Below, piece by piece: positions 7,034-37,071 of a stretch of 39,176 nt of DNA. How positions within the stretch are numbered: the stretch's first letter is position 1; the number at the start of each line of letters is the position of its first letter. The notes under the pieces are model-generated. The model was given only the letters and a program-made list of their open reading frames with translations, searched no databases and was not told the origin of the DNA. The position numbers and the translations under genes are program-made. Origin of the DNA: Oceanospirillaceae bacterium (GTDB taxonomy: Bacteria; Pseudomonadota; Gammaproteobacteria; Pseudomonadales; Balneatricaceae); NCBI GenBank assembly GCA_018647765.1, contig JABGSN010000035.1, positions 1 through 39,176 of the forward strand, in the 5' to 3' direction.

Positions 7034-7672
7034 CTACACCACAACAGACCCATGAAATAGCTTGGCCGAACACTCCGTAATGCGCCAAAAGGAATTGTCT
7101 TCACCTGTCGTTTCGCTAGTTACAACCAGCGTATCACCGGTGGATAAATAGTATTGCTTGGCATTTAGTGCATCCTCAAGGCCCAGTTCACCTTTGATAA
7201 CGTAAATAAAACTGTAGCGTTTGTTAGCCACATTTTGTACGTGCAATGGCACGTTAAGCAGCTCATCCAATGGCATATTATTGGCTTCCACCTGCACTAC
7301 GCGATCACTCACTTGAACCTGTGGCCGATGGATCAGATTTATGGCGAAGGCGGTCTGGGTAAGTAGTTTACATGTGAGTTGGCTTTCCCCAAAAAAGTCG
7401 AACGCCGTGCCGCTTTGATCAACAATTGTCTGGTTATTGTTTGTATCCAATTCGAACTCACACCTACCGTCTAACGTGCGATGGTGACGTATATAACCTG
7501 GATACAGCGTGAAGTCGGATTGCGGGACCTCAATGGTTGCCGTAGAAAACCTAAACAGGTAATTTTGATCATTGCTTGTTTTTGGAAAGCGGTAAACCTC
7601 ACTCATTTGACCGGCACCGTTACCCCAAAGCTGGGTTACAGACTCGGTATATTTAACGATACTAACTTGCAT
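7034..7672 (-). CDS. HutD/Ves family cupin-like protein
   Basis: The 212-residue protein shows the HutD/Ves signature: WGNGAGQMSEV near the N-terminus, FRFSTATIEVPQSDFTLYPGY at about residues 40-60 and SGTAFDFFGE near the middle. HutD proteins are bicupin-like and accompany histidine-utilisation operons; the biochemical role is not settled. I start it at the ATG at 7672, where AGAGGA lies eight bases upstream; a longer reading would overlap the preceding gene by 44 bases without added homology. It is the last gene of the methylamine-type operon, 31 bases after the FrhB-like stop. No hut genes occur here, so it may bind a ligand linked to the betaine/C1 pathway, which is inference. Confidence 0.78.
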   Translation of the reverse strand: MQVSIVKYTESVTQLWGNGAGQMSEVYRFPKTSNDQNYLFRFSTATIEVPQSDFTLYPGYIRHHRTLDGRCEFELDTNNNQTIVDQSGTAFDFFGESQLTCKLLTQTAFAINLIHRPQVQVSDRVVQVEANNMPLDELLNVPLHVQNVANKRYSFIYVIKGELGLEDALNAKQYYLSTGDTLVVTSETTGEDNSFWRITECSAKLFHGSVVV

Positions 7673-7703
7673 ACCAGTGTCCTCTGCATGGCGTTCAATA
7701 GAG

Positions 7704-8966: not shown

Positions 8967-9029
8967 AAATACCCTTGGTGTTGGCAGCAATGTATTGGCG
9001 CATTATTTCATAATATTGATGATCTTACT

Positions 9030-10541
9030 CTAAGCTAATTTTATCGGATATTTATGCCGGATGGCAGCATCTATTGCTGGCGTTAGATAACTGGGCTGGT
9101 GTTGCAATAGCTGCTCCACCTTAGTTTTGGCCCGCGCCCAATGGTCCATGCTACCGCTCTCTTGCCAGACGATAGGCTCGTCTCGGTCGGCCAATTTTGG
9201 ATAATAATAATCTCGTTCCATCGACACCATGGTTTGCGGCGCATCTATAAAGTGTCCAGAACCAGCAATAGCAGCCTTAATGGATTCAAAACCCAAATCC
9301 TCTTCCGTAACTTCGATACCGCGTAGGGCACGGTGTACGTGAGATAACATCTCATCATCCATCACAAAGGCTTCAAAAGAGGCTCCTAAAAGGCTCGCCA
9401 TCATGCCCGACGATTCGTACACCATGTTGCCCCCAGCCAACCCACAAGCTAAAGCGGTAATGGCTTTTTCCATACCCATTTGAGCGTCGGGTACTTTGGC
9501 GTCGCTCATGCTTGAGCCACAACCAGACGGCAAACCTAAGCTATTAGAAAGTTGCGCCGAAGCGGCATTGAGCAAGGCCATCTCTCCCCCGCCCCCCCGA
9601 AAAGCGCCAGTGCGTAGATCAATTACTAACGGCCAGTTAGAAAAGATCATTGGATAACCCGGCTCAAAAACATTGATCATGATGAGCGCTGCTAGAGTTT
9701 CTGCCAAGGTAATAGCCAGAGTGCCTGCTAATGGAGCAGGCGAGGTGGCACCAGTCATGGCGGCTACAATATTGCTAATGGGCACACCGCGCTTCATACA
9801 CGCCAAAGCTACCATTACCGCATCTTCACCGTATTTTAGAGGTGAAATGACTGGGCTGATATGGGCCTTACAAAATGGACGTTTAGCAAATTCGCCTTCA
9901 CCCCCCAGGGCCATGTCGAACATATCGACGATGGGATCCACATGTTCTGGCAAGGTAAAGCTAGTGGCAACGGGTTTGGTGGTGCCACGCAGTAATGCGT
10001 ACACCGTATTCACGTCTAACTCGTATAAATCGGGCACATCGGTGGCCACACAACAACGGGTAAACCAAGCCACGTTAGGCAACTGATCCACCAACCGAGT
10101 AAAGTCATATAAATCGTCTAGGGTGGACGGGCGATACTGGCCATTATTCAAATCCAGAGTTTGTACGGCGGCACCACCGGTACCAAAATAAACCCTGTCT
10201 CCACCCACTTGAATATCATGCTTGGGGTCGCGGCCATAAAAGGTGAACTCCTTACAGGCCCCTGCAATAATGGTTTCTACCATGGACGATGGGTAACATA
10301 AACGCCCCAGTTCATTCACTTTAGCGCCCTGAGCCAATGCTTGCTTTAGGAGCACAGGAGGGACGTCGGCCATGCCTATTTCATCTAAGATGCGTAACGA
10401 CTCAGTGTAAATGCGTTGCACTTGAGCCGGCGTTAGCGGCTGATATTGCCCACCCGACTGCCCTGGTGCACAAGGGTTTGTTGCGGGGGGTTTAGCTCTC
10501 TGCGCATGTTTAGCGGCGCGGGCTGAAGGTCGTCTAGCCAT
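9030..10541 (-). CDS. Trimethylamine methyltransferase (MttB) superfamily protein, non-pyrrolysine
   Basis: The 503-residue protein matches the MttB superfamily of quaternary/tertiary amine methyltransferases. Recognisable blocks are ILDEIGMADVP near the N-terminus, YFGTGGAAVQTLD at about 115-130, and a C-terminal TIM-barrel part with SGCGSSMSDAKVPDAQMG, ALACGLAGGNMVYESSGMM and DDEMLSHVHRALRG. The frame has no internal TAG, so it belongs to the non-pyrrolysine branch that includes glycine betaine methyltransferase MtgB. Such enzymes move a methyl group to a cognate corrinoid protein, yet no corrinoid protein or activase is encoded in this window. GGAG lies seven bases before the ATG. The gene follows the dimethylglycine dehydrogenase-like gene by 15 bases. 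The likely substrate is glycine betaine or a related betaine, inferred from context and family. Confidence 0.9.
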   Translation of the reverse strand: MARRPSARAAKHAQRAKPPATNPCAPGQSGGQYQPLTPAQVQRIYTESLRILDEIGMADVPPVLLKQALAQGAKVNELGRLCYPSSMVETIIAGACKEFTFYGRDPKHDIQVGGDRVYFGTGGAAVQTLDLNNGQYRPSTLDDLYDFTRLVDQLPNVAWFTRCCVATDVPDLYELDVNTVYALLRGTTKPVATSFTLPEHVDPIVDMFDMALGGEGEFAKRPFCKAHISPVISPLKYGEDAVMVALACMKRGVPISNIVAAMTGATSPAPLAGTLAITLAETLAALIMINVFEPGYPMIFSNWPLVIDLRTGAFRGGGGEMALLNAASAQLSNSLGLPSGCGSSMSDAKVPDAQMGMEKAITALACGLAGGNMVYESSGMMASLLGASFEAFVMDDEMLSHVHRALRGIEVTEEDLGFESIKAAIAGSGHFIDAPQTMVSMERDYYYPKLADRDEPIVWQESGSMDHWARAKTKVEQLLQHQPSYLTPAIDAAIRHKYPIKLA

Positions 10542-10556
10542 GGTTCACTCCTAGCT

Positions 10557-12986
10557 CTAACTACGAGGTTTGAGGTTAGCTGGGTCATACAGGCATGGCT
10601 CCACTACCATTGCGTCACAGACTTGACCAATGATGGATACCTTAAAGTGGCCCCCAATGATCGCCACAGCTGCATCTACATAGGCATAAGCCAAGTTTTT
10701 AGCCACACGGTGGCCATAGCCGCCAGAAGTAACAACACCCACCTGTTGGCCATGATGAATAACCGGGTCGCCACCATGGGCGGCGGCAAAGTCGCAGCTC
10801 ACCTCTAATGTAACCAAGCGCTGGCGTGGGCCTGACTCTAGATCGGCTAGCAACGCTTGTTTGCCAATAAAATCTGGCTTATCCAGTTTCACAAAGCGAT
10901 CCAAACCCGCTTCTATAGGGTTAAATTCATCAATGATTTCCGCTTTCCAATGTAGGTAACCTTTCTCCAAGCGCATGGATTCGGTGGCATAAAGGCCAAA
11001 CTTACTCAAGTGGAAGGTTTGCCCTGCGCTTTGTAATAGCTGCCACACTAGGTACAACTGCGCATTAGGAATGTGTAGTTCGTAGGCTAACTCGCCCGAA
11101 AAACTCACACTCATGGCGTTAACTTGCGCGTAACCAAGGCTGATCGAGCGCACTTGCATCCAACCAAATGCAGCGGCACTACAATCATCACGGGGGCATA
11201 ACGACTGTAACAAGTCTCGTGACTTAGGCCCTGCTAACACCAGTATAGTATGGCTATCGGCCATTTCCGTTAAGGTTACAGTGGCCGGCATACTGGTATT
11301 TAAGTAATCGCGGTCATGCCATTCTGCCGCGGCTGCAGAGCCATACCAAAAATGGTCTTCTCCTAGCTTAGCTAAGGTTGCTTCGCACAACATTCGGCCT
11401 GCATGGTTGAGCAAATAACACAATCGAACCTGCCCAACTTTTTTAGGTATCGCGCCACACACTAACTGGTCAAGCCACTGTTCTACACCTGCGCCTTTGA
11501 GCTCATAACGGTTAAAGCCCGAGACCTCCATCACGCCAACGTTGGCTTGAAGGGCCGCAATTTCTTGCGCCACTACCGCGTGGGATTCGTTAAAGCGGTA
11601 ACCGGCAGTTTCCACAAAGTCCGGCGTAGGTTTAAACATCAATACCCGCTCCCAGCCATTCACCGTACCCCAAATGGCATCCAGTTGATCCAATACTGGA
11701 TACAAAGGCGTGGTGCGGGCTAACCGAGCGGCTGGGCGTTGCTCGTGAGGCAAATGGTAGTGAAACTCATTTTGATAATCCTCAATGGCCTTTAGGCAAG
11801 TGTGTTCGGTATTGGCATACTGGCTAAAACGACGCGGGTCGGTGTACCAAGAATCCCACTCAGACTGACCATTAACAATGATTTCGGCCAAGATTTTGCC
11901 ATGGCCGCCACTTTCGCCAATACCGGCCCTGAGCCCGATAGCACAATAGGCGTTTTCAATGCCAGGGATAGGGCCAATCAGAGGCGCACCGTCAATAGTA
12001 TAGGTAATAGGGCCATTGATGATCGAATGGATGCCCACGGTTTGTAGGGCTGGCAAACATTCAAATATGCCTTCCATATTGTCTAAACATCGGTCTAAAT
12101 CATCGGGGCACAAGGCTTTGGTAAAGTCGGGGCTAATGCCGTCCATACCAAAGGTTTTGCAACCTTGTTCGTATACGCCGACCAACAAGCCATGCTTTTC
12201 TTGGCGGCTATAAAAGTCATCCCTCGGGTCTCGTATAATGGGCACTCTAAAATCTAATGCCTCTAACTCTGGCATCGGTTCAGTTAGAAAATACATGTGT
12301 TCCATGGAGGTCACTGGGTGCTCAACCCCCAGCATATTGCCTACCTCATTAACCCGGTAACCCGTGGCATTAACTACTTTTTCGCAGGTAATATCGCCTT
12401 TAAGGGTATGTACAATAAACTCGCCGTTAGCTTTGCGGGTGATGTTTTCCACAGGATTAAAGCGATACACCTTGGCACCGGCTTCGCGGGCTTTACGCAC
12501 CATAGCAAAGGTAATACCGGCTGGGTCGATGTCACCATCTAGCGGATCCCACCAAGCACCCAGCAACCCTTCTGGGTTTATTAGCGGATGGCGCCTAGCC
12601 ACTTCGGCTGGGTCAATAAATTCCATGTCGGCACCCATGCCATTAGCCATGCCCACCATGTGCTGGTAGGTATCAACTTGAGCGGCTGTGTTCGCAAGGC
12701 GCATGCCTCCAGTAATATGGTAGGCAAACGGAAAGTCCACATCATCTGCTAACTTTTTATACAGTTGAATACTATGGCGTTTAAGGGCAATAGCAGTTTG
12801 ATTAGCACCAAATTGCGTCACTTGTGCTGCAGCATGCCAGGTGGAGCCAGAAGTAAGTTCATCCCGTTCAACTAACGCAATATCAGTCCAGCCGTGATCT
12901 ATAGCCAAATGATAAAATACTGATGCACCGGCAATACCACCACCAATCACCACCACACGCGCGTGAGCATCTACCCCTTCACTCAT
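10557..12986 (-). CDS. FAD-dependent dimethylglycine/sarcosine dehydrogenase-like protein with GcvT domain
   Basis: The 809-residue protein has an N-terminal D-amino-acid-oxidase fold (about residues 10-375) with dinucleotide motif VVVIGGGIAGASVFYHLA and the block TSGSTWHAAAQV, whose His is the covalent FAD attachment point in dimethylglycine dehydrogenase. An FAO_M linker (about 380-440) and GCV_T and GCV_T_C tetrahydrofolate-binding domains (about 440-805) follow, with FSGELAYELHIP, YATESMRLEKGYLHW and GVVTSGGYGHRVAKNLAYAYV. This architecture oxidises N-methyl groups and passes formaldehyde to tetrahydrofolate. Length is normal for the family (about 800-850). It leads the operon with the MttB-, FrhB- and HutD-like genes and is divergent from a LysR regulator 131 bases away. 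Dimethylglycine or sarcosine is the best substrate guess; the two are hard to tell apart by eye. Confidence 0.9.
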   Translation of the reverse strand: MSEGVDAHARVVVIGGGIAGASVFYHLAIDHGWTDIALVERDELTSGSTWHAAAQVTQFGANQTAIALKRHSIQLYKKLADDVDFPFAYHITGGMRLANTAAQVDTYQHMVGMANGMGADMEFIDPAEVARRHPLINPEGLLGAWWDPLDGDIDPAGITFAMVRKAREAGAKVYRFNPVENITRKANGEFIVHTLKGDITCEKVVNATGYRVNEVGNMLGVEHPVTSMEHMYFLTEPMPELEALDFRVPIIRDPRDDFYSRQEKHGLLVGVYEQGCKTFGMDGISPDFTKALCPDDLDRCLDNMEGIFECLPALQTVGIHSIINGPITYTIDGAPLIGPIPGIENAYCAIGLRAGIGESGGHGKILAEIIVNGQSEWDSWYTDPRRFSQYANTEHTCLKAIEDYQNEFHYHLPHEQRPAARLARTTPLYPVLDQLDAIWGTVNGWERVLMFKPTPDFVETAGYRFNESHAVVAQEIAALQANVGVMEVSGFNRYELKGAGVEQWLDQLVCGAIPKKVGQVRLCYLLNHAGRMLCEATLAKLGEDHFWYGSAAAAEWHDRDYLNTSMPATVTLTEMADSHTILVLAGPKSRDLLQSLCPRDDCSAAAFGWMQVRSISLGYAQVNAMSVSFSGELAYELHIPNAQLYLVWQLLQSAGQTFHLSKFGLYATESMRLEKGYLHWKAEIIDEFNPIEAGLDRFVKLDKPDFIGKQALLADLESGPRQRLVTLEVSCDFAAAHGGDPVIHHGQQVGVVTSGGYGHRVAKNLAYAYVDAAVAIIGGHFKVSIIGQVCDAMVVEPCLYDPANLKPRS

Positions 12987-17442: not shown

Positions 17443-18357
17443 ATGAAAACACCCGGTCTTCATGCCTATAGCTTACTCGCCTTACAAGGTGCCGTGTGGG
17501 GTTCGTCTTTTCAGGCGATAAAGTATGCTTTAGAAGGGTTTGGGCCCATGAGTGTGGCTGCGGGGCGCATTTTTATTGCGGCCGTAGTGTTGTTAACCTA
17601 TGCCCTAATGCAGGGCGACCGCTTGCCGCGTTCGGTCGCCACTTGGTTGAGTTTAATTGCCATTGGATTTTTTAACTGCGCCTTGCCCTTCTTTTTAATT
17701 CCTTGGGGCGAACAATCCTTAGACTCCGGCCGTGCAGCTATTTTTATGGCAACTGGGCCTTTGATTGCTATATTACTAGTGCATTTTATCAGCCAAGACG
17801 AGAAAATTACGCGCTACAAAACGGCCGGTTTTAGCCTGGGTTTTATAGGGGTGTTGTGTGTTATTGGTGTGGATACGTTTGCTTCTGGTGTGGGCGATTT
17901 GTTACCCCAACTTGCCATTATTGTTGCCGCGGCGTCCTACGTGATCTCGGGTGCCATGGTAAAACGGCTCAAGGGTTTAAGCAGTGCGATGTTGTCTGCA
18001 GGTGTATTAATCGGGGGCTGCCTGATTACGGTCCCTGCTAGTCTGTGGCTAGCCCCCCCCCTGGCTTCGATTACTAATCAAAGTCCCAACCTGCCTGATT
18101 CGGCCCTTATTGCGCTGGTGTATTTGGGTTTAGTGCCTACGGCTGCTGCATTTTTTGTACGCTTTTACCTCATCAAACAATATGGCTACACCTTTGTATC
18201 TCAGGTGGGTTACCTGGTGCCGGTATTTAGCGTGTTATTTGGTGTGCTGTTATTGGGTGAGGTGCTCACCCTTGCCATGGTTATTGGTTTAGTGCTTATC
18301 CTTGGGGGTATTATGTTAAGCCGCCAAGTGAGTAAACGTCATCACCGGTTCCCCTAA
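17443..18357 (+). CDS. EamA/DMT family transporter (third of three)
   Basis: The 304-residue protein has two EamA repeats with typical features: GAVWGSSFQAIKYALEGFGP at the N-terminus, AGFSLGFIGVLCVIGVD at the end of the first repeat, and GEVLTLAMVIGLVLILGGIML at the end of the second. It begins on the base after the amidase stop, so it belongs to the same transcript. Its last 42 bases overlap the end of the convergent enolase-superfamily gene, an unusually deep tail-to-tail overlap. It is not a near-identical copy of the two upstream EamA proteins, so the three were probably assembled rather than produced by a recent duplication. Confidence 0.88.
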   Translation: MKTPGLHAYSLLALQGAVWGSSFQAIKYALEGFGPMSVAAGRIFIAAVVLLTYALMQGDRLPRSVATWLSLIAIGFFNCALPFFLIPWGEQSLDSGRAAIFMATGPLIAILLVHFISQDEKITRYKTAGFSLGFIGVLCVIGVDTFASGVGDLLPQLAIIVAAASYVISGAMVKRLKGLSSAMLSAGVLIGGCLITVPASLWLAPPLASITNQSPNLPDSALIALVYLGLVPTAAAFFVRFYLIKQYGYTFVSQVGYLVPVFSVLFGVLLLGEVLTLAMVIGLVLILGGIMLSRQVSKRHHRFP

Positions 18358-19446
18358 TACCTGCATGTTTGGCTCTATGCCTAAGCCCGGCGATTGAGGT
18401 GCAGTTACCCAACCTTCACGCCGTTCAAATGCGCCCTTTTGAGCGGCCGACGCGGTGCTAACGCTCACCATATCTCGGGTATCAAGAATACAGCGCAATA
18501 GGTGCGGCGGAATAGTTTGACCCATGTGAGCGATGGCTGCAAAGGCAATATCAGAACCTACAGTGTCTTGTACACTGAGACTATAACCGGCACTGATACA
18601 CATGTCCCGTTGACGGCGACAAGGAGTTAAGCCGCCGTTTTTAGATATTTTTAAACCCACACCTTCTGCTGCGTCATCACTTATTAGCTGCGTCACTGCG
18701 GCATCACTGTTGGCCAGCTCATCCCAGATCATGGGCATATCTGTGCGTTTACGTAACGACATATGTTCGCGCCATGTGGCACATGGGGCTTCAAGCACTA
18801 TGTCTGCATGGCGCGGCAATAAACGCAAAAACCGCAGTCCCGTTTCTACCGTCAGGCCACCATTAGCATCAACAATAAAGTATTCCCCAGGTTGACGATC
18901 AGCCAAACACGCCGTCACCCGGTCTGCGTCTAACTGCGGGTCTTCGCCGATCTTAATCGAATGGCCTCGATAGCCCTGTAATCGATGCGCTTGCACCCGT
19001 TCGCGCATGGCTTCTGGGCTACCTGCATAAATCGATGATATCACCCCCATAGGTTCTGAGGTACGCCCGCCCAACAAATCACACACGGCCATAGACACAG
19101 CTTTGCCAAACAAGTCCCAGCAGGCTACATCTAAGGCCGCCTTGGCATGGCTGTGCCCCACTAAAGCGGCATCCATGGCATCGTAAACCCGATCTACACG
19201 ACGAGGGTCTAAGCCTAAAATAGCCGGTGCTATTTCTTTAACTCCCGCTCTTACTCCCAACGCGTGGGCGGCAATGTAGGTGGCGCCAAAGGGTGTGCTT
19301 TCACCAAATCCAGTAACGCCAGTATCACTAGTGAGGCGCACAATGGTGGCATCAAAGCTAGCATACTCTCGCCCACCAGATAAGCGATAGGTACCACCGG
19401 CATAGGGTAGGTCTACTTGATAGACGTCTATTTGGCTAATGTTCAT
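18316..19446 (-). CDS. Enolase superfamily (mandelate racemase group) dehydratase/epimerase, hydroxyproline-type
   Basis: The 376-residue protein has the mandelate racemase capping and barrel domains. VGHSHAKAALDVACWDLFGK marks the start of the barrel. The first base appears as SIKIGED (a single Lys in place of a full KxK), metal ligands are in VDANGG, LEAPC and WDELAN, and the second Lys is in LKISKNGG. The C-terminus reads GLGIEPNMQVLGEPV, as in cis-3-hydroxy-L-proline dehydratases; relatives include hydroxyproline-betaine 2-epimerase. A role on hydroxyproline or a proline betaine is therefore likely but not proven. AAGGAT precedes the ATG by six bases. It follows the MDR oxidoreductase gene by 10 bases on the same strand and overlaps the third EamA gene at its 3' end. 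Confidence 0.83.
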   Translation of the reverse strand: MNISQIDVYQVDLPYAGGTYRLSGGREYASFDATIVRLTSDTGVTGFGESTPFGATYIAAHALGVRAGVKEIAPAILGLDPRRVDRVYDAMDAALVGHSHAKAALDVACWDLFGKAVSMAVCDLLGGRTSEPMGVISSIYAGSPEAMRERVQAHRLQGYRGHSIKIGEDPQLDADRVTACLADRQPGEYFIVDANGGLTVETGLRFLRLLPRHADIVLEAPCATWREHMSLRKRTDMPMIWDELANSDAAVTQLISDDAAEGVGLKISKNGGLTPCRRQRDMCISAGYSLSVQDTVGSDIAFAAIAHMGQTIPPHLLRCILDTRDMVSVSTASAAQKGAFERREGWVTAPQSPGLGIEPNMQVLGEPVMTFTHLAA

Positions 19447-19456
19447 GGTGTTATCC

Positions 19457-20572
19457 TTATGGGTGCTCGGGGATCAGCACTAATTTGCCGGTAAATGCCT
19501 TAGCTAAAAAGTCGGTTTGGGCGGTATGTATGTGTTTAAGTGGGTAAGTACGCGCCACCACCGGCCTAATTTCATCGCCTTCGATGTAGCTCATCAAATT
19601 GTCAAACACTTGGGCCTCTTGGTACGTGCAACCAAAAAAACTCAGGTCTTTTAGGTACAGAGTACGAATATCTAGCTCCACCATAGGCCCAGCAATGGCT
19701 CCCGAGGTAGTATAACGCCCACCTCGGCGTAACAGGTCGAGTAATTGTGGCCAAGCCGGCCCTGCCACCAAATCCACCACCAAATCCACTTGATTGTCGC
19801 CGATGGCGGCGACTAGATCATCCCCTCTTACCACCAACTGATCGGCACCCAAGGCTTTAACATCGGCGTGTTTGGTAACGCCGGCAACAGCAATCACGTG
19901 AGCGCCACGGCGTTTGGCCAACTGCACTGCCGCAGAACCTACGCCACCAGACGCACCCGTAATTAACACGCGTTCACCGGACTTTAAATTGGCTCGGTGG
20001 AGCATGTTTTCGGCAGTAGAATAAGCACAGGGAATAGACGCCAACTCGGCATCACTCCATGACGTGTTGACCACATAAGCCTCGTCACTCAAAGCACAGG
20101 TATATTGAGCAAAACCTCCATCATATTCAGACCCAAAGGTAATGCAGCTAAAGGGTTTGCTGGGATCTTGCTGCATGGTACGCACCAATACCCGCTCACC
20201 TATACGCTCACTGTTAACGCCTGCACCCACGGCAATCACTTCGCCACAGACGTCGGCACCTTGAATGCGCGGCAACTGCAAGGCACTGCCAGACCAGGTG
20301 GCAGTCGCTGCATCCAGTTCATCGTAACCCGTGTCTGCGCCACTATTAGTGTCGCCGGTGACTTGTTTTGAATACCAGCCGATACGGGTATTGATATCAG
20401 TATTATTCACCCCCGCCGCCAATACCTTAAGCAATACTTCGCCTGCTTTAGGTTGAGGGGTGGCAATGTCTTTTTTATACACCAGCTGATCTAAGCCACC
20501 GTGGCCGACAAGGAGAACGCCAGACATGGTGCTAGGAACAGGCCGATTTTTTGACAGGTCAACTGTGTCCAT
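19457..20572 (-). CDS. Zinc-independent-looking MDR oxidoreductase (quinone oxidoreductase/alcohol dehydrogenase family)
   Basis: The protein of about 371 residues belongs to the medium-chain dehydrogenase/reductase superfamily. The N-terminal GroES-like domain contains AGVNNTDINTRIGWYS and IQGADVCGEVIAVGAGV, and the Rossmann domain contains RVLITGASGGVGSAAVQLAKRRGAHVIAVAG, the AxGGVGxxAxQxAK pattern of NAD(P)-dependent quinone-reductase-like members. The four-Cys structural zinc loop is absent. Start choice is uncertain: I use the ATG at 20572; ATG at 20527 (MSGVLLVGH) is possible and neither has a convincing Shine-Dalgarno. It leads a two-gene unit with the enolase-superfamily enzyme and is divergent from an MFS gene. 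An oxidation or enoyl-reduction step in the same degradation route is inference. Confidence 0.83.
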   Translation of the reverse strand: MDTVDLSKNRPVPSTMSGVLLVGHGGLDQLVYKKDIATPQPKAGEVLLKVLAAGVNNTDINTRIGWYSKQVTGDTNSGADTGYDELDAATATWSGSALQLPRIQGADVCGEVIAVGAGVNSERIGERVLVRTMQQDPSKPFSCITFGSEYDGGFAQYTCALSDEAYVVNTSWSDAELASIPCAYSTAENMLHRANLKSGERVLITGASGGVGSAAVQLAKRRGAHVIAVAGVTKHADVKALGADQLVVRGDDLVAAIGDNQVDLVVDLVAGPAWPQLLDLLRRGGRYTTSGAIAGPMVELDIRTLYLKDLSFFGCTYQEAQVFDNLMSYIEGDEIRPVVARTYPLKHIHTAQTDFLAKAFTGKLVLIPEHP

Positions 20573-20654
20573 TATATATTTTCGTATTGGTGGCGAGTGC
20601 CACGAATTTAGCAGTTCATTGAGCACCAAACAAGCAACATTATTGAGTTTCAAT

Positions 20655-20731: not shown

Positions 20732-21967
20732 ATGATAAACGTGACTAGCAAACAAAAAACCTTTGGGCTCGCAAACAACAGACATCAAGTAGCCCATTGG
20801 TTAATGCAAGTGTTTTTTGTGGGCCTAATGATCGGCACAACGCGAGTGGTGATCACGCCGTTTGCAGAGCAAGAATTTGGCCTAGCTAAAGATTCCTTAT
20901 TGCTACTAAGCACCTTTGTGATTTCTTTTGGCGTAGTTAAAGGCAGCATAAATTTTGTGGCCGGACACTGGGCCGAACGTCTGGGCCGTAAACCCGTACA
21001 TATCCTAGGCTGGCTGATTGCGTTACCTATCCCATTATTGTTTTATTTTGCTCAATCTTGGTCTTGGGTAGTAGCGGCCACCCTATTGCTTGGCATTAAC
21101 CAAGGCCTCACTTGGTCCATGACCCAAACCTCCAAACTTGATATTACGGCTTCGCACGAACGCGGCTTGACCATTGGTCTCAACGAATTTGCGGGCTATA
21201 CCGGTGTCGCCTTAGGCGGATTGGTAAGTGCTTACGTCAGCCAATGGTTGGGGCTTAAAACAGGCTTACTCATATTTGGATTGGCAATTATAAGCGCTGC
21301 ATTGATATTAACCTGGCTGAGCATCCTAGAAACAAAACCTTGGACAGAGCAGCAAGCCCAAACCACATCACAACAAACCGTTAGCGAGCCAACTTCATCG
21401 TGGCATGTGTTCAAACGTATGAGTTGGCATGATTCGCGCTTATTGGCGATCACTCAAGCGGGCTGCGTAGAAAAATTTGTGGATGCCTTGGTATGGGTGG
21501 TGTACCCCGTCTATCTGTACCAAAAAACCGGCGACCTTACGTTAACGGGTTGGATCATTTCTATTTACGGTTTAGTGTGGGGCGTGAGTCAATTGATCAC
21601 AGGGCACTGGTCGGACCGGTTTGGCCGCCAGCGCCTTAACGTATCCGGCATGGCCATGACCACCCTTGGGGTAATAATGATGCCGCTCATGCAGTCTGGT
21701 TTGGGTTGGTCTGTGAGCGCCGCCATTACCGGTTTTGGTATGGCTTTACTCTACCCTAACCTGTCTGCTGCCATCGTCGATTTATCACAACCTGCGTGGC
21801 GAGCAACGGCCATTGGCATTTATCGTTTTTGGCGTGACATAGGCTATGCCATTGGCGCCTTTGTGCTAGGCCTTTCTGCGTTCTTGTTTCAAGACCTAAC
21901 CGCAGCCTTCTGGGCCGTAGGAATGAGCATGGCAATCTCCACAGTTTGGTTAGCTGTTCGAGGCTGA
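20732..21967 (+). CDS. Major facilitator superfamily transporter
   Basis: The 411-residue protein has about twelve hydrophobic helices with a central cytoplasmic loop (about residues 205-235, polar and Gln/Thr-rich). The A-like loop between helices 2 and 3 reads GHWAERLGRKPVHILG, and its repeat in the second half reads GHWSDRFGRQRLNVSG, the classic MFS G-x-x-(S/A)-(D/E)-R-x-G-R pattern. The substrate is not evident. The gene is divergent from the MDR oxidoreductase/enolase-superfamily pair with palindromes between, so uptake of the compound degraded by that pair is a reasonable inference. No good Shine-Dalgarno is seen before the ATG. It ends 5 bases before the convergent GNAT toxin gene. Confidence 0.85.
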   Translation: MINVTSKQKTFGLANNRHQVAHWLMQVFFVGLMIGTTRVVITPFAEQEFGLAKDSLLLLSTFVISFGVVKGSINFVAGHWAERLGRKPVHILGWLIALPIPLLFYFAQSWSWVVAATLLLGINQGLTWSMTQTSKLDITASHERGLTIGLNEFAGYTGVALGGLVSAYVSQWLGLKTGLLIFGLAIISAALILTWLSILETKPWTEQQAQTTSQQTVSEPTSSWHVFKRMSWHDSRLLAITQAGCVEKFVDALVWVVYPVYLYQKTGDLTLTGWIISIYGLVWGVSQLITGHWSDRFGRQRLNVSGMAMTTLGVIMMPLMQSGLGWSVSAAITGFGMALLYPNLSAAIVDLSQPAWRATAIGIYRFWRDIGYAIGAFVLGLSAFLFQDLTAAFWAVGMSMAISTVWLAVRG

Positions 21968-21972
21968 CACCC

Positions 21973-22491
21973 CTAAACCCTGCCCAAGGCAGTTTCAATT
22001 TCACCAATAGTGAGCATCAAGGTGTGAGAATCCATTGGCGATTCATAAAACCCATGTTTGACGTAGAAGCGGCTTGCTGTGTGGTCCAACGCATGGGTGA
22101 CTACAGCCCTCACACCAATTTGCTCGGCAGCCGAAACACAACGCATCAGAGCATCTTTAACCAAACCCGCACCTAAATGGGCTCCAGTAAATGGTTTAGC
22201 CACTGCCAATCGAGCTAAGATAATCACTGGTATAGGGTCGGGCATATTTCTTCTAACCTTGCCCAATACTTCGTGCCTCGCCACTGCGCCCGTAGCTAAA
22301 GCGTAATAACCCGCCACCTCATGATCCACTGTACAAGCTACATACGTGCGAGCAGAACCACCAACCATTTGTGCTTTAAGGGCCTTTTTAGCCAACCACA
22401 CATTAAGACTGGGCTGGCCACAGTCGAAATTACTTACATCGTGTGCAGTGGTTAACAACGTAGGTGCACTTAGCGTTGCCATGACCTTCAA
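21973..22491 (-). CDS. GNAT family acetyltransferase, type II toxin (TacT/AtaT-like)
   Basis: The 172-residue protein is a GNAT acetyltransferase of the group paired with DUF1778 antitoxins. It starts with an FDCGQPSLNVWLAKKAL block, and the acetyl-CoA site is at VIILARLAVAKPFTGAHLGAGL (R-x-x-G-x-G/A-like loop), followed by ASRFYVKHGFYESP with the Tyr used as general acid in this family. These toxins acetylate the amino group of charged tRNAs and stop translation. The start overlaps the antitoxin stop in an ATGA arrangement, the usual antitoxin-first order. The residues needed for activity appear present, so the module may be functional. Confidence 0.88.
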   Translation of the reverse strand: MKVMATLSAPTLLTTAHDVSNFDCGQPSLNVWLAKKALKAQMVGGSARTYVACTVDHEVAGYYALATGAVARHEVLGKVRRNMPDPIPVIILARLAVAKPFTGAHLGAGLVKDALMRCVSAAEQIGVRAVVTHALDHTASRFYVKHGFYESPMDSHTLMLTIGEIETALGRV

Positions 22492-22754
22492 GACTCCCAG
22501 GGAACACTCATCGCCATCAATTTTTGTAGCCGAGGGTTGTGTGCTGGAGGCGCATCGAGTGAGGCAACAAACTTGTCATAATCCAGCTCATCCAAGCTGA
22601 TGAGCTGTTGCTGTATAATTACTTCACGCGCTTTTTGGATGGCCGCATCCAGCATAAATTCAGTTCGGTTGCGGTGCATTATTTGAGCAGCTCTATCGAT
22701 TAATCCACGTACTTCTGGCGCGGCTTTCATATTAATTGGAACCGATGACGTCAT
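22488..22754 (-). CDS. DUF1778 ribbon-helix-helix antitoxin (TacA/AtaR-like)
   Basis: The 88-residue protein has an N-terminal ribbon-helix-helix region, SVPINMKAAPEVRGLIDRAA followed by RNRTEFMLDAAIQKA (about residues 4-45), typical of DUF1778. A flexible C-terminal tail contains FVASLDAPPAHNPRLQKL, the part that wraps around the GNAT toxin. It binds its own promoter to repress the pair. AGGTAGG lies upstream of the ATG. The four-base overlap with the toxin gene and the dyad-rich AT region upstream support an autoregulated operon. Confidence 0.88.
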   Translation of the reverse strand: MTSSVPINMKAAPEVRGLIDRAAQIMHRNRTEFMLDAAIQKAREVIIQQQLISLDELDYDKFVASLDAPPAHNPRLQKLMAMSVPWES

Positions 22755-22927: not shown

Positions 22928-23569
22928 ATGACCGAACCCAATCACATAAGCACTGCCCTTCACCAACTACGTAAACAGCTCGTACTAGCATTACGTGCAT
23001 CGCCGTTTGTAATGGACAACAACAATGACACGGCGGCAAAAGTAATTAATCGGCTTGTAGATCAAGGCCAAGTCAACTTAGATGCAGGTGCTAGTAATAC
23101 TCTCGCCAATTTAATGCCACAGATTACTCAAGCCGCCACTGCTCTGCCGGAACGTTTATATAGTTTGGTGAATTGCGTGGCCGATTTGGAAGCTCATTTA
23201 CCTTGGTATCAGCGGCCCATTGCAAATAACCCAGAGTTTATGGTGAGCCACAGCAATGCTCAAATTATTGGCCCAGAAGGGTTAGAAGTACGGCATGACC
23301 TCATTGTTGGCGTCACCCTTATGCGGCCCAATGTAGCCTACCCAGACCACCAGCACGAACCCGAAGAGCTCTACTTAGTACTAAGTGAAGGTTTATGGCG
23401 CCAAGCAAACGGCCCTTGGCATACGCCAGGCATAGGCAACTTGGTTTATAACCCCACCGATGTATTCCACGGCATGAAGTCTGTGGATGCGCCTTTGTTA
23501 GCCCTTTGGTGTTTACCATTGGATAAACCGTTTACGTCGTTTAGCGCGCCTTTGCCATCAGCATCTTAG
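22928..23569 (+). CDS. DddQ-like cupin, probable dimethylsulfoniopropionate lyase (cupin-DLL family)
   Basis: The 213-residue protein matches the DMSP-lyase cupin family that releases dimethyl sulfide and acrylate from DMSP. The N-terminal half is helical. The cupin barrel holds VGVTLMRPNVAYPDHQHEPE, the metal motif HQHEPEELY with His141, His143, Glu147 and Tyr149, and His181 in NPTDVFHGMKS. The spacing His-x3-Glu-x-Tyr-x31-His equals that of the zinc ligands and catalytic Tyr I recall for Ruegeria DddQ (His125, Glu129, Tyr131, His163). Length is close to DddQ (about 200). The stop overlaps the stop of the convergent amidotransferase gene by four bases. No Shine-Dalgarno is clear at the ATG. 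The wider cupin-DLL family includes members without proven DMSP lyase activity, so the substrate remains an inference. Confidence 0.8.
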   Translation: MTEPNHISTALHQLRKQLVLALRASPFVMDNNNDTAAKVINRLVDQGQVNLDAGASNTLANLMPQITQAATALPERLYSLVNCVADLEAHLPWYQRPIANNPEFMVSHSNAQIIGPEGLEVRHDLIVGVTLMRPNVAYPDHQHEPEELYLVLSEGLWRQANGPWHTPGIGNLVYNPTDVFHGMKSVDAPLLALWCLPLDKPFTSFSAPLPSAS

Positions 23570-24252
23570 CGGCCTGTTCCACAACGCTGAAAAAAGTCGG
23601 CTATTTCCCGATTGATTGCATGGTTCACTTTAAACTTGCCAAATTTTTGTTGATAAAACTGTTTCGCTTCGGGCGCTAACACGTCGTTGTAAGATTCGTA
23701 CAAATGGCGGATATAATCATCGTTAAACTCTGGGTGGGCTTGGTAACTTATGGCTTTGTTGGCATACACGATTGCCGCTGCAGGGCAATGTTCTGCACTA
23801 GCAGTCACTTCAAGTGCAACCGGGGGTAAGTCAACTATTTGTTGGCCATGCCACGCCGCCACGGACATTTGGCTGCCGTCACTTTTGTTGTAGTTGATGA
23901 CCCCAGTTTGATACACAACGGGAGCGTCGGCAACGCTTCCTCCTAATGCTTTAGCGATGGCCTGATGACCAAAACAGATACCTACCATAGGTTTATTCCC
24001 ATAGGCTGCGCGGATCCACTCAAGCATGGGAGCCATCCAAGGTAGGTGTTCGTCTAAGTTATGTTTTGAACCGGTTAATAGATAACCGTCACAATCATCG
24101 TCAGCCCGTGGTAACTCACCATTAACCACTGTAAAGGTAACAAATTCAAACCCAAAGGGTGCTAACAGATCACGAAATTGCTGATCATAATAACCATACT
24201 TTGCATGCATTTCCGGCGATGACAAACCACACAGTAATATGCCTAATTTCAA
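23566..24252 (-). CDS. Class I glutamine amidotransferase-like protein
   Basis: The 228-residue protein is a stand-alone class I amidotransferase domain. The nucleophile elbow GICFGHQ places Cys93, and QAHPEF supplies His173 and Glu175, completing the triad. The substrate region has LLTGSKHNLDEHLPWM near residue 60. Stand-alone members make or hydrolyse gamma-glutamyl bonds, or serve as glutaminase subunits. The start is a TTG at 24252, supported by AGAGGA eight bases upstream; the next Met lies at residue 15, after conserved beta-strand residues. It is the last gene of a minus-strand unit with the TetR and threonine-aldolase-like genes, 38 bases after the latter. Confidence 0.83.
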   Translation of the reverse strand: MKLGILLCGLSSPEMHAKYGYYDQQFRDLLAPFGFEFVTFTVVNGELPRADDDCDGYLLTGSKHNLDEHLPWMAPMLEWIRAAYGNKPMVGICFGHQAIAKALGGSVADAPVVYQTGVINYNKSDGSQMSVAAWHGQQIVDLPPVALEVTASAEHCPAAAIVYANKAISYQAHPEFNDDYIRHLYESYNDVLAPEAKQFYQQKFGKFKVNHAINREIADFFQRCGTGR

Positions 24253-24290: not shown

Positions 24291-25367
24291 TCAATCATTG
24301 ACTTGTGCTACTAACAGCGCTTTTGCCGCAGCCACAAAGTGATCAACATCATCCGCCTGAGTGCTAAAATTAGTCACTAAACGTACCACATTTTTGTCCC
24401 AACGGTCGCTGTAAAAATGGAAGCCTTGGGCCAACAAACCATCAATAGCAAATCGAGGTATTTTACAGAATAAAATATTAGATTGGCATTGGCATTCAAT
24501 TTCTATCCCAACAATAGCCTGTAAACCGCGCACCAACCGTGCGCACATTTGATTCGCATGACGCGCGTTACTGAGCCATAAGTCGTGCTTTAAGTAGGCA
24601 TTCATTTGGGCCGACATTAAGCGCATTTTGGACATCAAATGGCCAGCGCGTTTGCGCCTAAAAGCGAGTTCTTGGGCAAGGCTTGGATCAAATAGAACAA
24701 TGGCCTCTGCCCCTAACACCCCATTTTTTGTGGCCCCAAAAGACAATACATCCACCCCCGCCTTCCAGGTCATGTCGGCTGCCGAACAATCCATGGCCAC
24801 CAGTGCATTGGCAAAACGAGCACCGTCCATGTGTAAGCGCAGGCCGTTATCATGGCAAATATCACCAATAGCCTGTATTTCGTCAACACTATACAGGCTG
24901 CCTGTTTCGGTAGATTGGCTAATACTCACTACCGCGGCTTGGGATGAATGAACATCGCCTACTTTTTTCGAGGCCACGTTTGCTAGATTTTGCGCACCAA
25001 TCTTGCTGCTGTCGCCATCAATACAAATTAGCTTCGCGCCATTGGTGAAAAATTCTGGCGCGCCACATTCATCATTATTGATATGGCTGTGCGGATGGCA
25101 CAACACCGCACCCCAAGGGGGTGTAAGCACACTTAGGCCCAACGCATTAGCAGCAGTTCCTGTAGGTACCAAAAACACACTTACTGGGCACTCAAAAATA
25201 GCGCTCAGTTGTTGCTCTACTTGCTGGCTGTAGGTATCTACTCCATAGGGCGACTCTGGACCGGAACCGGCATTCACCATAGCCTGCAATACTTCAGCTG
25301 AAGCACCCTCTGCATTGTCGCTAGAAAAAACCTTGTTATAGGGTCCAGTTTTATTAATGCGGGTCAT
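24291..25367 (-). CDS. Low-specificity L-threonine aldolase-like PLP enzyme
   Basis: The 358-residue protein is a fold-type I PLP lyase of the threonine aldolase/beta-eliminating lyase family. Landmarks are [17 protein letters not shown] at the N-terminus, [15 protein letters not shown] (cofactor phosphate loop), [15 protein letters not shown] with the Asp that contacts the pyridine nitrogen, and [16 protein letters not shown] with the Schiff-base Lys. The family cleaves beta-hydroxy amino acids to glycine and an aldehyde. I chose the ATG at 25367, 12 bases after the TetR stop, over an in-frame TTG at 25379. Its place beside a Rieske oxygenase raises the possibility that it cleaves a hydroxylated amino acid made by that oxygenase, which is inference. 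Confidence 0.86.
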
Positions 25368-25379
25368 TATAGGTCTCAA

Positions 25380-31356: not shown

Positions 31357-31689
31357 ATGAAAAGCTGGATTTTGCTATTTTTTGCGGTGGTGTGCGAAGT
31401 GGTGGGCACCTCAGCCATTAAACAATCTGAGGGGTTTACCAAATTTTGGCCCTCAATAACCGTGGCTGTGGGTTTTGCCTTGGCTTTTTATCTCCTGTCT
31501 TTTTCCCTTAAAGCTCTGCCTATTGGTGTGGTTTACGCCGTATGGTCGGGCATGGGTATTGTATTAATTTCGGTAATTGGCCACTGGTTCTTTAATGAGC
31601 GTCTCGATACGCCGGCCATTATTGGCGTTAGCTTTATCCTTGCAGGCGTTATTATCATGCAGGTATTTTCCAAGGCGGTGGCTCACTAA
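31357..31689 (+). CDS. Small multidrug resistance (SMR/EmrE-like) transporter
   Basis: The 110-residue protein has four hydrophobic helices, the conserved membrane Glu in LFFAVVCEVVGTSAIKQSEG (Glu14 equivalent of EmrE), and the loop GVVYAVWSGMGIVLISVIG typical of the QacE/EmrE branch. SMR proteins are dual-topology dimers that exchange protons for quaternary ammonium cations. AAGGAAT precedes the ATG. It shares an operon with betI, since its TAA overlaps the betI ATG as TAATG. Position in a BetI unit suggests the physiological cargo is choline, betaine or a similar quaternary amine, not a drug. This is an inference from context. Confidence 0.9.
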   Translation: MKSWILLFFAVVCEVVGTSAIKQSEGFTKFWPSITVAVGFALAFYLLSFSLKALPIGVVYAVWSGMGIVLISVIGHWFFNERLDTPAIIGVSFILAGVIIMQVFSKAVAH

Positions 31690-32276
31690 TGCCAAAATTA
31701 GGCATGCCAGAGGTTAGACGCCCTCAGCTCATCCGCGCCACGATGGACGTCATCAATCAAGTGGGTTTCCTTAACGCCACGGTGGCTAAAATAGGCCAGC
31801 AAGCGGGCATTTCACCCAGCATTATTAACCATTATTTTGGTGGCAAAAGTGGCTTAGTAGAGGCCACCATGCGCAGTATTCTTAAGGACCTGTCTACGGG
31901 TATTAACTTACGTTTATCTAAGGTTCCCAAAGACGATACCCTAGCGCGCATTGAAGCCATTGTTGGCGAAAATTTTAGTTCGCACCAACAAGATGAAGCG
32001 GTGGTAAAAACTTGGTTAGCATTTTGGGCCCAAGCCATGCACGACCCAACCTTAAACCGCATACAGCGAGTGAACGAAAAACGTTTATTGTCGTACCTCA
32101 GGTTAGAGCTAAAGCGCTCTATGCCCCATGCACAAGCACAGATGGTGGCTATCAGCATCGCGGCGTTAATCGACGGCATTTGGTTACGTGGCGCACTTAA
32201 TCCACAAGGTATGAATTCAAATCTAGCCCGCCAAGTAGTGCAGGATTATTTATTGCTGTACATCAAACACAGCTAA
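31689..32276 (+). CDS. betI: BetI, TetR-type choline-responsive repressor
   Basis: The 195-residue protein starts MPKLGMPEVRRPQLIRATMD, with helix-turn-helix ATVAKIGQQAGISPSIINHYFGGKSGL, and continues with FSSHQQDEAVVKTWLAFWAQAMH and IAALIDGIWLRGAL, which are family hallmarks of BetI. It represses choline-to-betaine genes and is released by choline. The start overlaps the SMR stop by one base. Its stop overlaps that of the convergent glycosyltransferase/YdjC gene by four bases. Its likely targets are the SMR-betI promoter and the betB promoter, which share a spaced motif. Confidence 0.93.
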   Translation: MPKLGMPEVRRPQLIRATMDVINQVGFLNATVAKIGQQAGISPSIINHYFGGKSGLVEATMRSILKDLSTGINLRLSKVPKDDTLARIEAIVGENFSSHQQDEAVVKTWLAFWAQAMHDPTLNRIQRVNEKRLLSYLRLELKRSMPHAQAQMVAISIAALIDGIWLRGALNPQGMNSNLARQVVQDYLLLYIKHS

Positions 32277-33909: not shown

Positions 33910-35601
33910 TTAACTCAATGGCCGATTTGCTGTGCCGGTGCGTTGCGTGTTCTGCCAATCTTCGGCTATCCAGACCTTGACGGTAGCAGGTGCCAACGGT
34001 GTTTTACCTAAAATTAAGTCAGCCGCTTTTTCAGCCACCATGATGGTGGGCGCATTTAAGTTGCCATTGGTAATCACCGGGAAGACAGACGAGTCCACAA
34101 CGCGCAATCCACTGACCCCGCGCACCTTGCATTGACTATCGAGCACCGCCATCGCATCGTCGTCTGCTCCAATTTTGCAGGTACACGAAGGGTGGTAGGC
34201 GCTTTCTACATTTTGCTTAACCCATGCATCAATCTCATCATCAGTTTGAACCTTAGCCCCTGGTTGAATTTCTTCACCCTTAAACGGGTCTAAGGCAGGC
34301 TGATTGAGTAATTCGCGGGTGAGGCGGATACAGTCGCGCCAGTCTTGTTTGTCTTGTTCGGTACTGATGTAGTTAAACACAATCTCTGGCGCATCACTGG
34401 CCTTGTTAGAGGTGATACGGATGTGACCACGGCTGCTGGGTTTATTAGGCCCCACATGCACTTGATAACCATGGCCATCAAAGGCTGCATTACCATCATA
34501 ACGCATAGCGGCTGGCAAAAAGTGGTACTGAATATTGGGCCATTTGAGGCCTGCTCGAGATCGAATAAAACCACAGGATTCAAAGTGGTTGGTGGCGCCT
34601 AAACCTGTTTTGGTAAGCACCCACCGGGCGCCGATTAAACCCATGTTAAAATAATCGAGTTTACTATTAAGGCTGATGGGCTGCTTGCACCGGTACTGGA
34701 AGTACACTTCTAAGTGGTCTTGTAAGTTTTCGCCCACACCCGGCAAATCGTGCAGTACAGGCACTCCAGCATGTTCCAGCACTTGCGCTGGCCCCACGCC
34801 AGACAGCTGTAATAATTGTGGCGAACCCACAGAGCCTGCACTAAGGATGACTTCTTTTTGGGCACACACTTGCTTTAACTGCCCCCCTTGAAGGTACTCA
34901 ATACCCGTGGCCTGCTTACCATTAAACAAAACCTTTTGTGCGATAACGCGCTTCATTAAGGTAAGGTTTGGGCGCTTAAGGGCACGGCGTAAATGCGCAT
35001 TGCTGGTGCTGGCTCGAACGCCATTTTTTACCGTCATATGCATGGCTCCAAAACCTTCTTGTTGCTCGCCATTAAAGTCTTTGGTGTATGGGTACCCGGC
35101 TTGGGTACCGGCATCAATAAAGGCCTGATACAAAGGGTTCATGGTCATATTGTTGCCACCGCAAGTGCCTACAGGGCCATCACCACCGCGGTACTCATCT
35201 GCACCACCCTGCCAAGTTTCAGACTGCTTAAAATACGGTAAACAATCGGCATAATTCCACCCCGTAGCCCCTTGTTCTTGCCATTGTTCGTAGTCCTGCG
35301 CGTGACCGCGTACATATACCATGCCGTTAATCGACGATGATCCACCTAGTACTTTGCCTCGCGGGCAATGCATTTCGCGGCCATCAAGCCCAGCTTCGGC
35401 TTGACTATGAAACTGCCAAGCGTACTTTTCTGTATTCATTGGGTAAGACAAGGCGGTAGGCATTTGAATAAAAATACTTTTGTCGGTTCCACCGGTTTCT
35501 AATAATAAAACCTGATGCTCGCCACTTTCGGTTAAACGGTTGGCCAACACACAACCTGCAGAACCTGCGCCTACAATAATGAAGTCGTATTTTTTGCTCA
35601 T
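33910..35601 (-). CDS. betA: Choline dehydrogenase
   Basis: The 563-residue GMC oxidoreductase oxidises choline to betaine aldehyde at the membrane. The FAD motif is [19 protein letters not shown] at the N-terminus; GMC signature 1 is [18 protein letters not shown] and signature 2 is [16 protein letters not shown]. The active-site His is in [10 protein letters not shown], followed by the C-terminal [13 protein letters not shown]. Length matches E. coli BetA (556). It starts 12 bases after the betB stop in the order betB-betA. Together the two convert choline to glycine betaine for osmoprotection or catabolism. Confidence 0.94.
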
Positions 35602-35613
35602 GAGATGGTCGCC

Positions 35614-37071
35614 TTAATATGGAGATTCTAAATCGTCTAAACGTACAAATACGCTTTTCACTTGGGTGTAGTGATGCAATGTTTCTGGGCCATTTTCACG
35701 GCCTATGCCCGACTGTTTGTACCCCCCCACCGGCATTTCTGCTGGCGAATCACCCCAACTATTAATCCAACAAATACCCGCTTGCATCTGGTTAATCACC
35801 CGATGAGCGCGACTAATATCTTGGCTAAACACACCTGCTGCAAGGCCATAGTCGGTGGCATTAGCCCGCGCAATGGCTTCGTCTTCATCAGTGAATTTAA
35901 GCACCGACATCACTGGCCCAAAAATTTCCTCTTGCACATGCACCATGTCGTCGCTGCAATCGGCAAATACCGTTGGCTCAACAAAATAGCCGTGTTTGGT
36001 GGCTGCACTCTCATGGCGCCCGCCACCACAAATTAAACGCGCCGAGGTTTGTTTGGCACCGTCGATATAACCCAACACTTTTTGCATGTGTTGCTGGCTA
36101 ATTAAGGCCCCCATTTGAGTGTCTAAGTTCAAAGGGTCACCCAATACAATGGCTTCTGCCCGCGCCTTAACCTTAGCGATAAATTCATCATAAACACCGG
36201 CCTGTACAAATACGCGGGTGCCATTGGTGCACACCTCGCCCTGGGTGTAAAAGTTAGCCAACATGGCACCGGCAACGGCGTTGTCGAGCTTGGCATCATC
36301 AAATACCAACATAGGTGATTTACCACCTAACTCCATAGTGACTTGTTTTAAGTTTGAAGCAGAGTCGGCCATTATTTTTTTGCCGGTACCGGACTCGCCG
36401 GTAAAAGACACTTTGGCAATGTCGGCGTGAGCAGTGAGCATTTGCCCTACTCGGTAATCGCCTTGCACCACATTGAACACGCCATCGGGCAGGCCCGCTT
36501 CGGTAAATATTTCAGCCAACTTCATCACACTTAACGGTGTCTCTTCAGACGGCTTAAACACCATGGCGTTGCCTGCAGCCAAGCATGGCCCAGCTTTCCA
36601 GCAAGCAATTTGAATCGGGTAATTCCACGCACCAATGCCTGCACACACACCTAAAGGCTCGCGGCGAGACATAAAGAAGCTGTGAGCATCCAAGTCTTGT
36701 TGGGTGCCTTGCATGCCACAAATTAAACCGGCGTAATATTCAATAACATCGGCCCCAGAGGCAATATCGACACAATTAGCTTCCTGTAACGGCTTACCTG
36801 TGTCACGTACTTCCAACTCGGCCAGCTCATCATTGCGATCACGCAATAACTGCGCAGCACGCCGCAAAATGCGCGACCGCTCCACCGGTACCATCGCTGA
36901 CCATAGGGCGAACCCCGCCTGCGCATTAGCCACGGCTAGATTCACATCAGCCTGACTGGCTTGATCAATGGTGGCCAAGGGCTCACCTAAGGCAGGGTTA
37001 ATACTGGTGAAGGTTTCACCCGAAGTGGCCCCTTGATGAGAGCCGTTTATATAAAGCTGGGTATGTTGCAT
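35614..37071 (-). CDS. betB: Betaine aldehyde dehydrogenase
   Basis: The 485-residue aldehyde dehydrogenase oxidises betaine aldehyde to glycine betaine with NAD(P). Landmarks are [21 protein letters not shown] (Rossmann start), [13 protein letters not shown], the Glu in [13 protein letters not shown] and the nucleophilic Cys in [13 protein letters not shown], which is the BetB form of the motif. The C-terminus has [22 protein letters not shown], typical of BetB. It is the first gene of betB-betA. A candidate BetI site lies 28 bases before its ATG; no strong Shine-Dalgarno is visible. Confidence 0.94.

Follow-up and report, generated by a model that had tools for sequence, protein, structure and literature searches.

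Does a DddQ-like cupin in a gammaproteobacterial genome cleave dimethylsulfoniopropionate (DMSP), or does it act on another onium compound? The question is raised by an open reading frame on the stretch of 39,176 nucleotides that we analysed as a whole (hereafter the window), which is one contig (C7) of the 2.49-Mb genome of an Oceanospirillaceae bacterium. The original prediction had called the encoded protein DddQ-like and had seen in it either a transferred DMSP lyase or a cupin-DLL member with a different onium substrate. The frame starts with ATG and encodes 213 amino acids with zero internal stops.

22928-23569, plus strand: DddQ-like cupin (PF16867, clade Y as defined below), with predicted metal ligands H141, H143, E147 and H181 and predicted catalytic residues Tyr149 and Tyr138

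Active site and predicted fold

The motif HQHEPEELY begins at residue 141 of the cupin, and His141, His143, Glu147, Tyr149 and His181 are all found where the original prediction had placed them. The active-site residues of RlDddQ, as given in the available text of PMC4437653, are Tyr120, His123, His125, Glu129, Tyr131 and His163. Mapped by motif and spacing, H141, H143, E147, Y149 and H181 of the cupin align with His123, His125, Glu129, Tyr131 and His163; the sixth residue, Y138, aligns with Tyr120, and the His-to-His spacing is 40 residues in both proteins. The Pfam model PF16867 (DMSP_lyase) matches the cupin with 120.2 bits (E 9.3e-35; Pfam cut-off 27), and this score, the 3His-1Glu motif and the tyrosine base place it in the superfamily of cupin DMSP lyases and lyase-like proteins. 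The PF16867 match, together with the orthologues in genomes of the genus, is far beyond chance. The NCBIfam models gave zero matches at E 0.01.

An AlphaFold model of the cupin (pLDDT 93.1, pTM 0.90) was computed from an alignment of 46 rows, one being the window protein and the other 45 coming from the best 80 loci of the pattern scan described below. With this model as query, Foldseek placed DddQ chains at all of ranks 1-6 (TMq 0.64-0.70, 15-20% identity). DddY and other cupins came next, with DddK appearing from rank 23 onwards. In a phmmer search of the PDB, RpDddQ 5cu1 (1.7e-5) and RnDddQII 4b29 (4.8e-5) ranked first. Judged from the predicted structure, the cupin has the fold of DddQ, and the designation DddQ-like was right for both fold and active site. 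The likeness to the solved DddQ proteins (RlDddQ 4la2, RpDddQ 5cu1, RnDddQII 4b29) extends to the metal site, both tyrosines and a similar length. DddK, DddY and other cupin DMSP lyases have the same 3His-1Glu-Tyr site (for DddK, as far as its residues are given in the available text of PMC10686828), but DddK and DddY match the window cupin less well than DddQ in fold and sequence; DddL, DddW and DddU lie outside this comparison.

Phylogeny and origin of the cupin

A scan of genome contigs for the pattern YPDHxHxP[EQ]E returned 323 stretches, 312 of which encode relatives of the cupin, and the best 80 were kept. These 80 of 312 come mostly from alphaproteobacteria, with some gamma- and betaproteobacteria; they are mostly rhizobial and not a random sample, and the counts given below for loci of this kind are to be read accordingly. 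The IQ-TREE phylogeny has 90 rows: 37 of the type retrieved by the scan (Y), 37 of DddQ type including fragments of 4la2, 5cu1 and 4b29, eight paralogues from the cupin's own genus (B) and eight others. Left out of it were 44 of the 80 scanned loci, seven further Y matches, and DddL, DddW, DddK and DddU. IQ-TREE flagged two long branches (L032 and L140, both among the others) and four rows of odd composition.

The window cupin falls inside clade Y (39 rows, support 100/99), and the DddQ rows form another clade (92/90). Forcing the window protein and its closest relative to group with the DddQ rows, a constraint set up after the tree had been seen, costs 82.9 log units (p-AU 1.7e-5). As judged from the sequences, the cupin is thus not a DddQ by descent and belongs to a separate clade. 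The original prediction had named placement outside all proven DMSP lyase clades among the observations that would tell against it; the cupin does lie outside the clade of DddQ, with DddL, DddW, DddK and DddU outside the tree.

Within clade Y the cupin groups with proteins of ASP10-02a, Amphritea and Marinomonas (93/88), outside the alphaproteobacterial branch, and its closest named relatives are encoded in Oceanospirillaceae MAGs, including ASP10-02a. A recent transfer from alphaproteobacteria is unsupported, because the nearest relatives of the cupin are from Oceanospirillaceae; its GC content (48.3%) is also near that of the window (47.7%). The idea of a transferred DMSP lyase is not supported, the protein lying outside the DddQ clade and among Oceanospirillaceae; that of a cupin acting on another onium compound is the better supported, by altered residues and by gene contexts. 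Orthologues with 52-100% identity occur in 9 of 15 genomes of the genus (its own included), and three further genomes of the 15 have a distant paralogue only; at the family level, 24 of 116 genomes match the cupin at E 0.001, the genus being counted in.

The cupin's own genome encodes a second PF16867 cupin (L055 9343-9942, contig C68), which belongs to clade B. It has the same metal and tyrosine residues as the window cupin but shares with it only 27% identity over 128 amino acids, retains the tryptophan of the DddQ Trp178 column, and falls in a separate clade. An ABC-ATPase-like frame adjoins it and an MttB-like frame lies ~6.5 kb away. This protein is another candidate onium enzyme.

Residues that distinguish clade Y from DddQ

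All 37 Y rows of the alignment retain the metal ligands and both tyrosines, as do 83/83 sequences of a larger Y set. Four of these residues, Y138, H141, H143 and E147, were prescribed by the search pattern; Y149 and H181 lay outside it, and these two are likewise kept in 83/83. Clade Y differs from DddQ at the column of DddQ Trp178, which holds tryptophan in 36/37 DddQ-clade rows and 8/8 B rows, and leucine in 37/37 Y rows and in 82/83 of the larger set. The residue of the window cupin is Leu196, and in this column it does not match DddQ. Position 194 is tryptophan in all 37 Y and all eight B rows and mostly valine in DddQ (26/37). In addition to these two exchanges, the separate clade and the 15-20% identity in the Foldseek alignments, the window cupin is set apart from DddQ by His108, Asn110, Arg122, Asp124, Gln159 and Trp164, which are typical of Y against both DddQ and B; G128 is common to Y and B, and M183 is frequent in DddQ too. 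The cupin of P. pantotrophus deviates from Y at the otherwise conserved positions 93, 159 and 194. Since aromatic residues hold the substrate cation in DddK, according to the available text of PMC10686828, the altered aromatics of clade Y would by analogy fit a different cation.

Gene neighbourhood in the window

The features of the window that bear on the function of the cupin are the following:

9030-10541, minus strand: MttB-superfamily methyltransferase, trimethylamine type, under the equivalog cut-off
10557-12986, minus strand: dimethylglycine/sarcosine dehydrogenase-like protein (DMGDH-like; DAO + GCV_T)
18316-19446, minus strand: MR/MLE protein
19457-20653, minus strand: zinc-dependent ADH/quinone-reductase-like protein, divergent from MFS and cupin
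20732-21967, plus strand: MFS transporter, encoded on the cupin's strand and upstream of it
24291-25379, minus strand: L-threonine aldolase-like PLP enzyme, in convergent orientation to the cupin here and in the seven syntenic relatives L038-L044
26052-27179, plus strand: Rieske oxygenase, CntA/GbcA-like; closest solved structure, the carnitine monooxygenase CntA
31689-32276, plus strand: betI (choline to glycine betaine)
33910-35601, minus strand: betA (choline to glycine betaine)
35614-37071, minus strand: betB (choline to glycine betaine)

The original prediction had stated that the cupin's neighbours handle quaternary amines. This holds for the window, with its MttB-type, DMGDH-like, Rieske and BetI/BetA/BetB proteins, but not for the genes directly beside the cupin. 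On one side these are a GNAT-like/TacA1-antitoxin-like pair (TA-like pair; 21973-22754, minus strand) with the MFS gene behind it, and on the other a class-I glutamine amidotransferase gene (23566-24252, minus strand) that separates the cupin from the aldolase and for which no counterpart was seen in seven syntenic relatives. The gap between MFS and cupin is only 39 bp in the relative L038, so the window cupin appears to have been parted from a likely operon partner by the intervening pair. The ADH and MR/MLE genes read away from MFS and cupin, the ORF starts as called lying 78 bp apart, and this divergent pair may be co-regulated with the cupin; a promoter and terminator scan gave matches no more frequent than in shuffles. 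The threonine aldolase was considered as a pathway partner, and its orientation to the cupin is convergent only. HutD-like and FrhB/F420-hydrogenase-beta-like frames adjoin the MttB gene (7034-8990, minus strand).

Among the nine genus loci, several of which are on short contigs, ADH occurs in four and MR/MLE in three; a Rieske gene is present only in the window and L038, and a DMGDH-like gene only in the window. None of the nine has HpbA beside the cupin, and in nine further Y loci from the family HpbA, ADH, MR/MLE, DMGDH and Rieske genes are all absent nearby.

Clade Y cupins beside stcD and hpbA

In 41 of the best 80 of 312 Y loci, a homologue of HpbA/StcD (71-82% identity) ends no more than 400 bp upstream of the cupin on the same strand. 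These 41 are mostly from closely related rhizobia, the others including Comamonas (L101), Rubellimicrobium (L105) and Litchfieldella (L113). Anywhere in the same best 80 of 312, a betaine-transporter substrate-binding protein is encoded in 40 loci, a ProC-like protein in 39, ETF beta in 28 and an AcuI homologue in one. Where the loci are annotated, cupin and HpbA/StcD stand with ETF, ProC-like, betaine ABC transporter and GSH-formaldehyde genes, and the partner of the cupin goes under the name hpbA in Paracoccus and, in R. etli, under that of stcD (N-methylproline demethylase). The available text of PMC12239276 places S. meliloti stcD on pSymB, and pSymB of S. meliloti 1021 carries an HpbA/StcD homologue, a 99.1% match, with a Y cupin directly downstream; this match is presumably stcD. 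Release of trimethylamine followed by a trimethylamine dehydrogenase was also entertained, and was rejected when the 678-aa partner, which at first looked TMADH-like, turned out to be StcD/HpbA.

The rhizobial and Paracoccus cupins of these loci, often annotated "dimethylsulfoniopropionate lyase", share the signature YPDHxHxPEE with the window cupin; the rhizobial ones are 33-36% identical to it over the full length and reach about 52% when the cupin part alone is compared. The window cupin thus belongs to the stcD/hpbA-operon group by clade (100/99) but has no adjacent N-methylproline demethylase gene: the stcD/hpbA cupins sit in an N-methylproline demethylase operon, whereas the window cupin stands with MFS, ADH and MR/MLE and no HpbA nearby. 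A link between the two settings is seen in P. pantotrophus, where an ADH and MR/MLE pair, 60% and 67% identical to the window proteins, lies a few genes past hpbA and cupin.

Among 17 plasmid hpbA loci picked from match lists, four have the cupin, two have a proline-racemase-family gene in the cupin slot and 11 have neither. Thioclava L206, which is among these 11, does contain a small cupin frame, but it is unrelated and lies on the opposite strand. ADH and MR/MLE occur together in one of ten Rhodobacterales plasmid loci of this comparison (the one with the Y cupin) and in none of the other seven. In its own genome the window cupin is accompanied by a separate locus on contig C28 with HpbD-like, HpbA and AcuI genes and without a cupin. 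The best PDB match of its HpbD-like MR/MLE protein is 4e8g (8e-136), which we take to be HpbD. In this locus (L175 5618-10571) the HpbD-like gene is divergent from a TetR-like frame, as seen by inspection, and from hpbA, which is followed directly by the gene for AcuI (acrylyl-CoA reductase family), an unexpected neighbour of a proline-betaine demethylase.

The Y-cupin operon of R. leguminosarum encodes a second PF16867-type protein (L035 10159-10854; also in L141). Its metal His/Glu and Tyr positions, compared by eye, are mostly replaced (FPDHVQTQPRAF), and from its sequence it is probably a non-catalytic partner.

Gene context of the DddQ clade

With flanks of 1.5 kb, ADH homologues were found at 14 of 30 DddQ-clade loci and MR/MLE homologues at 13. 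The assignment of these loci to DddQ is based on 41-77% identity to the RlDddQ fragment and on tree position. Twenty of the 30 were re-examined with wider flanks (one of just 4.4 kb): homologues of the window ADH (47-53% identity) occur at 12, of its MR/MLE at 10, of its DMGDH-like protein (distant, 35-37%) at 10, and Rieske genes at 10. ADH, MR/MLE and DMGDH are found together at 9/20, none of the four families at 7/20, and AcuI and HpbA homologues at 0/20. At L230 the frames for ADH, two DddQ proteins and MR/MLE are arranged like an operon, with overlaps of 1-4 bases, and the MR/MLE protein matches PDB 2pce (1.7e-175), which also ranks second among the PDB matches of the window MR/MLE. Families of class-III aminotransferases and RpiR-type regulators, each named from one representative, were each noted at nine of the 20 loci (L213-L230).

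ADH and MR/MLE neighbours are common to the window cupin and DddQ at many loci. Compared with the arrangement ADH-dddQ-MR/MLE, a pattern observed in this analysis that has no published definition, the pair is present in the window but divergent, with the MFS gene and the TA-like pair intervening. A literature search, with subscription papers outside its reach, found none on dddQ with mandelate racemase and dimethylglycine dehydrogenase, and the context may be published. Lei et al. (2018) reportedly describe the cupin family as including "other enzymes with unknown function", and may already cover clade Y or the dddQ context.

Proposed function

Given the computed fold, residue conservation, clade and gene contexts, we put at about even the chance that the cupin is a Tyr/metal enzyme of N-betaines, working by C-alpha deprotonation and most likely by beta-elimination. 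In DddK, the available text of PMC10686828 has a tyrosine removing the C-alpha proton of the metal-bound substrate. By analogy with the published work on DddQ and DddK, the cupin would be a mononuclear-metal enzyme with a divalent metal on H141, H143, E147 and H181; the metal would chelate the carboxylate of a zwitterionic substrate, and Tyr149, aided by Tyr138, would take the C-alpha proton, a step that the conserved residues make likely. The gene context points to the substrate and the outcome: because the surrounding gene families remove N-methyl groups from quaternary amines, the substrate would most likely be an N-methylated betaine or a demethylation intermediate rather than DMSP, and the most likely outcome would be beta-elimination of an amine. 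Several observations speak against this reading: HpbA is absent beside the cupin in the nine genus loci and the nine other Y loci of the family, the 41 stcD-linked loci are mostly from closely related rhizobia, the P. pantotrophus cupin deviates from Y at three positions, 7/20 DddQ-clade loci have none of the four families, and the HpbD-like/HpbA/AcuI locus of the cupin's own genome is without a cupin. On proline betaine, moreover, elimination is chemically awkward, since there is no beta-onium leaving group.

That the cupin is instead a genuine gammaproteobacterial lyase of DMSP (or DMSOP), which would release DMS (or DMSO) and acrylate and belong to a genus that is plentiful in polar blooms rich in DMSP, seems unlikely to us, even though it has all DddQ catalytic residues and DddQ-like ADH and MR/MLE neighbours. 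DddQ cleaves DMSP in published assays (available text of PMC10686828 and PMC4437653), so a betaine-type context is compatible with DMSP cleavage; the known DMSP lyases that were tested also accept DMSOP, according to the same portion of PMC10686828. The cupin, however, lies outside the DddQ clade and has lost Trp178, and many of its Y relatives are rhizobial and stand beside stcD/hpbA. AcuI is encoded over cut-off elsewhere in the genome (C28) but is absent from the nine genus loci. The available text of PMC4620155 has ASP10-02a blooming with DMSP-producing Phaeocystis, and reports its draft genome with dmdA and without dddD.

A C-alpha epimerase or racemase of a betaine or N-methyl amino acid, using the same Tyr/metal deprotonation, has in our estimate a slightly poorer chance again. 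For want of a beta leaving group the enolate would be reprotonated, and proline betaine, the likely stcD/hpbA substrate, has an acidic C-alpha hydrogen and no beta-onium group. The neighbouring MR/MLE proteins belong to a group that includes betaine racemases and epimerases (available text of PMC5144071), and a proline-racemase-family protein takes the cupin slot at two of the 17 hpbA loci. These slot swaps are just two, however, both from one strain, and 11 of the 17 loci have neither cupin nor proline racemase. Moreover, cupin and MR/MLE occur together in the window and at 10/20 DddQ-clade loci, so the cupin is no simple substitute, and the idea that it plainly replaces an MR/MLE racemase is weakened. 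A different cupin reaction (dioxygenase, hydrolase, formaldehyde or iminium handling), or a part in betaine catabolism as a binding protein, is improbable: 3His-1Glu cupins catalyse many reactions, Foldseek lists other cupins at lower rank, and Y-clade operons contain formaldehyde detoxification genes, but the cupin retains both DddQ tyrosines (one of them, Y138, was part of the search pattern) and is closest in fold to DddQ.

The preferred reading, an enzyme of N-betaines, can be extended to DddQ. Both subclades are tied to betaine-demethylating machinery, StcD/HpbA with ETF for Y and Rieske, DMGDH-like, ADH and MR/MLE proteins for DddQ, and the window has DddQ-type neighbours around a Y cupin. 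DddQ and Y cupins may natively serve N-betaine catabolism; DMSP cleavage by DddQ would then be incidental to its work as a C-N lyase or epimerase of cyclic or hydroxylated betaines. We advance this tentatively, as a proposal with somewhat less than even prospects.

Implications

The context shared with Y puts the native role of DddQ in question and makes it directly testable. Ocean surveys count ddd genes, dddQ included, as DMSP-cleavage genes (available text of PMC10686828), and the annotation of Y proteins as DMSP lyases extends to rhizobia. Should the role of these cupins be in betaine breakdown, ddd gene counts may overstate the potential for DMS production, the members of the cupin lyase family listed with "unknown function" would gain a testable substrate class, and the cupin would be a candidate gene for a possible missing step in stachydrine/betaine catabolism. 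The cupin itself is real and well conserved, and it is probably an enzyme of betaine catabolism.
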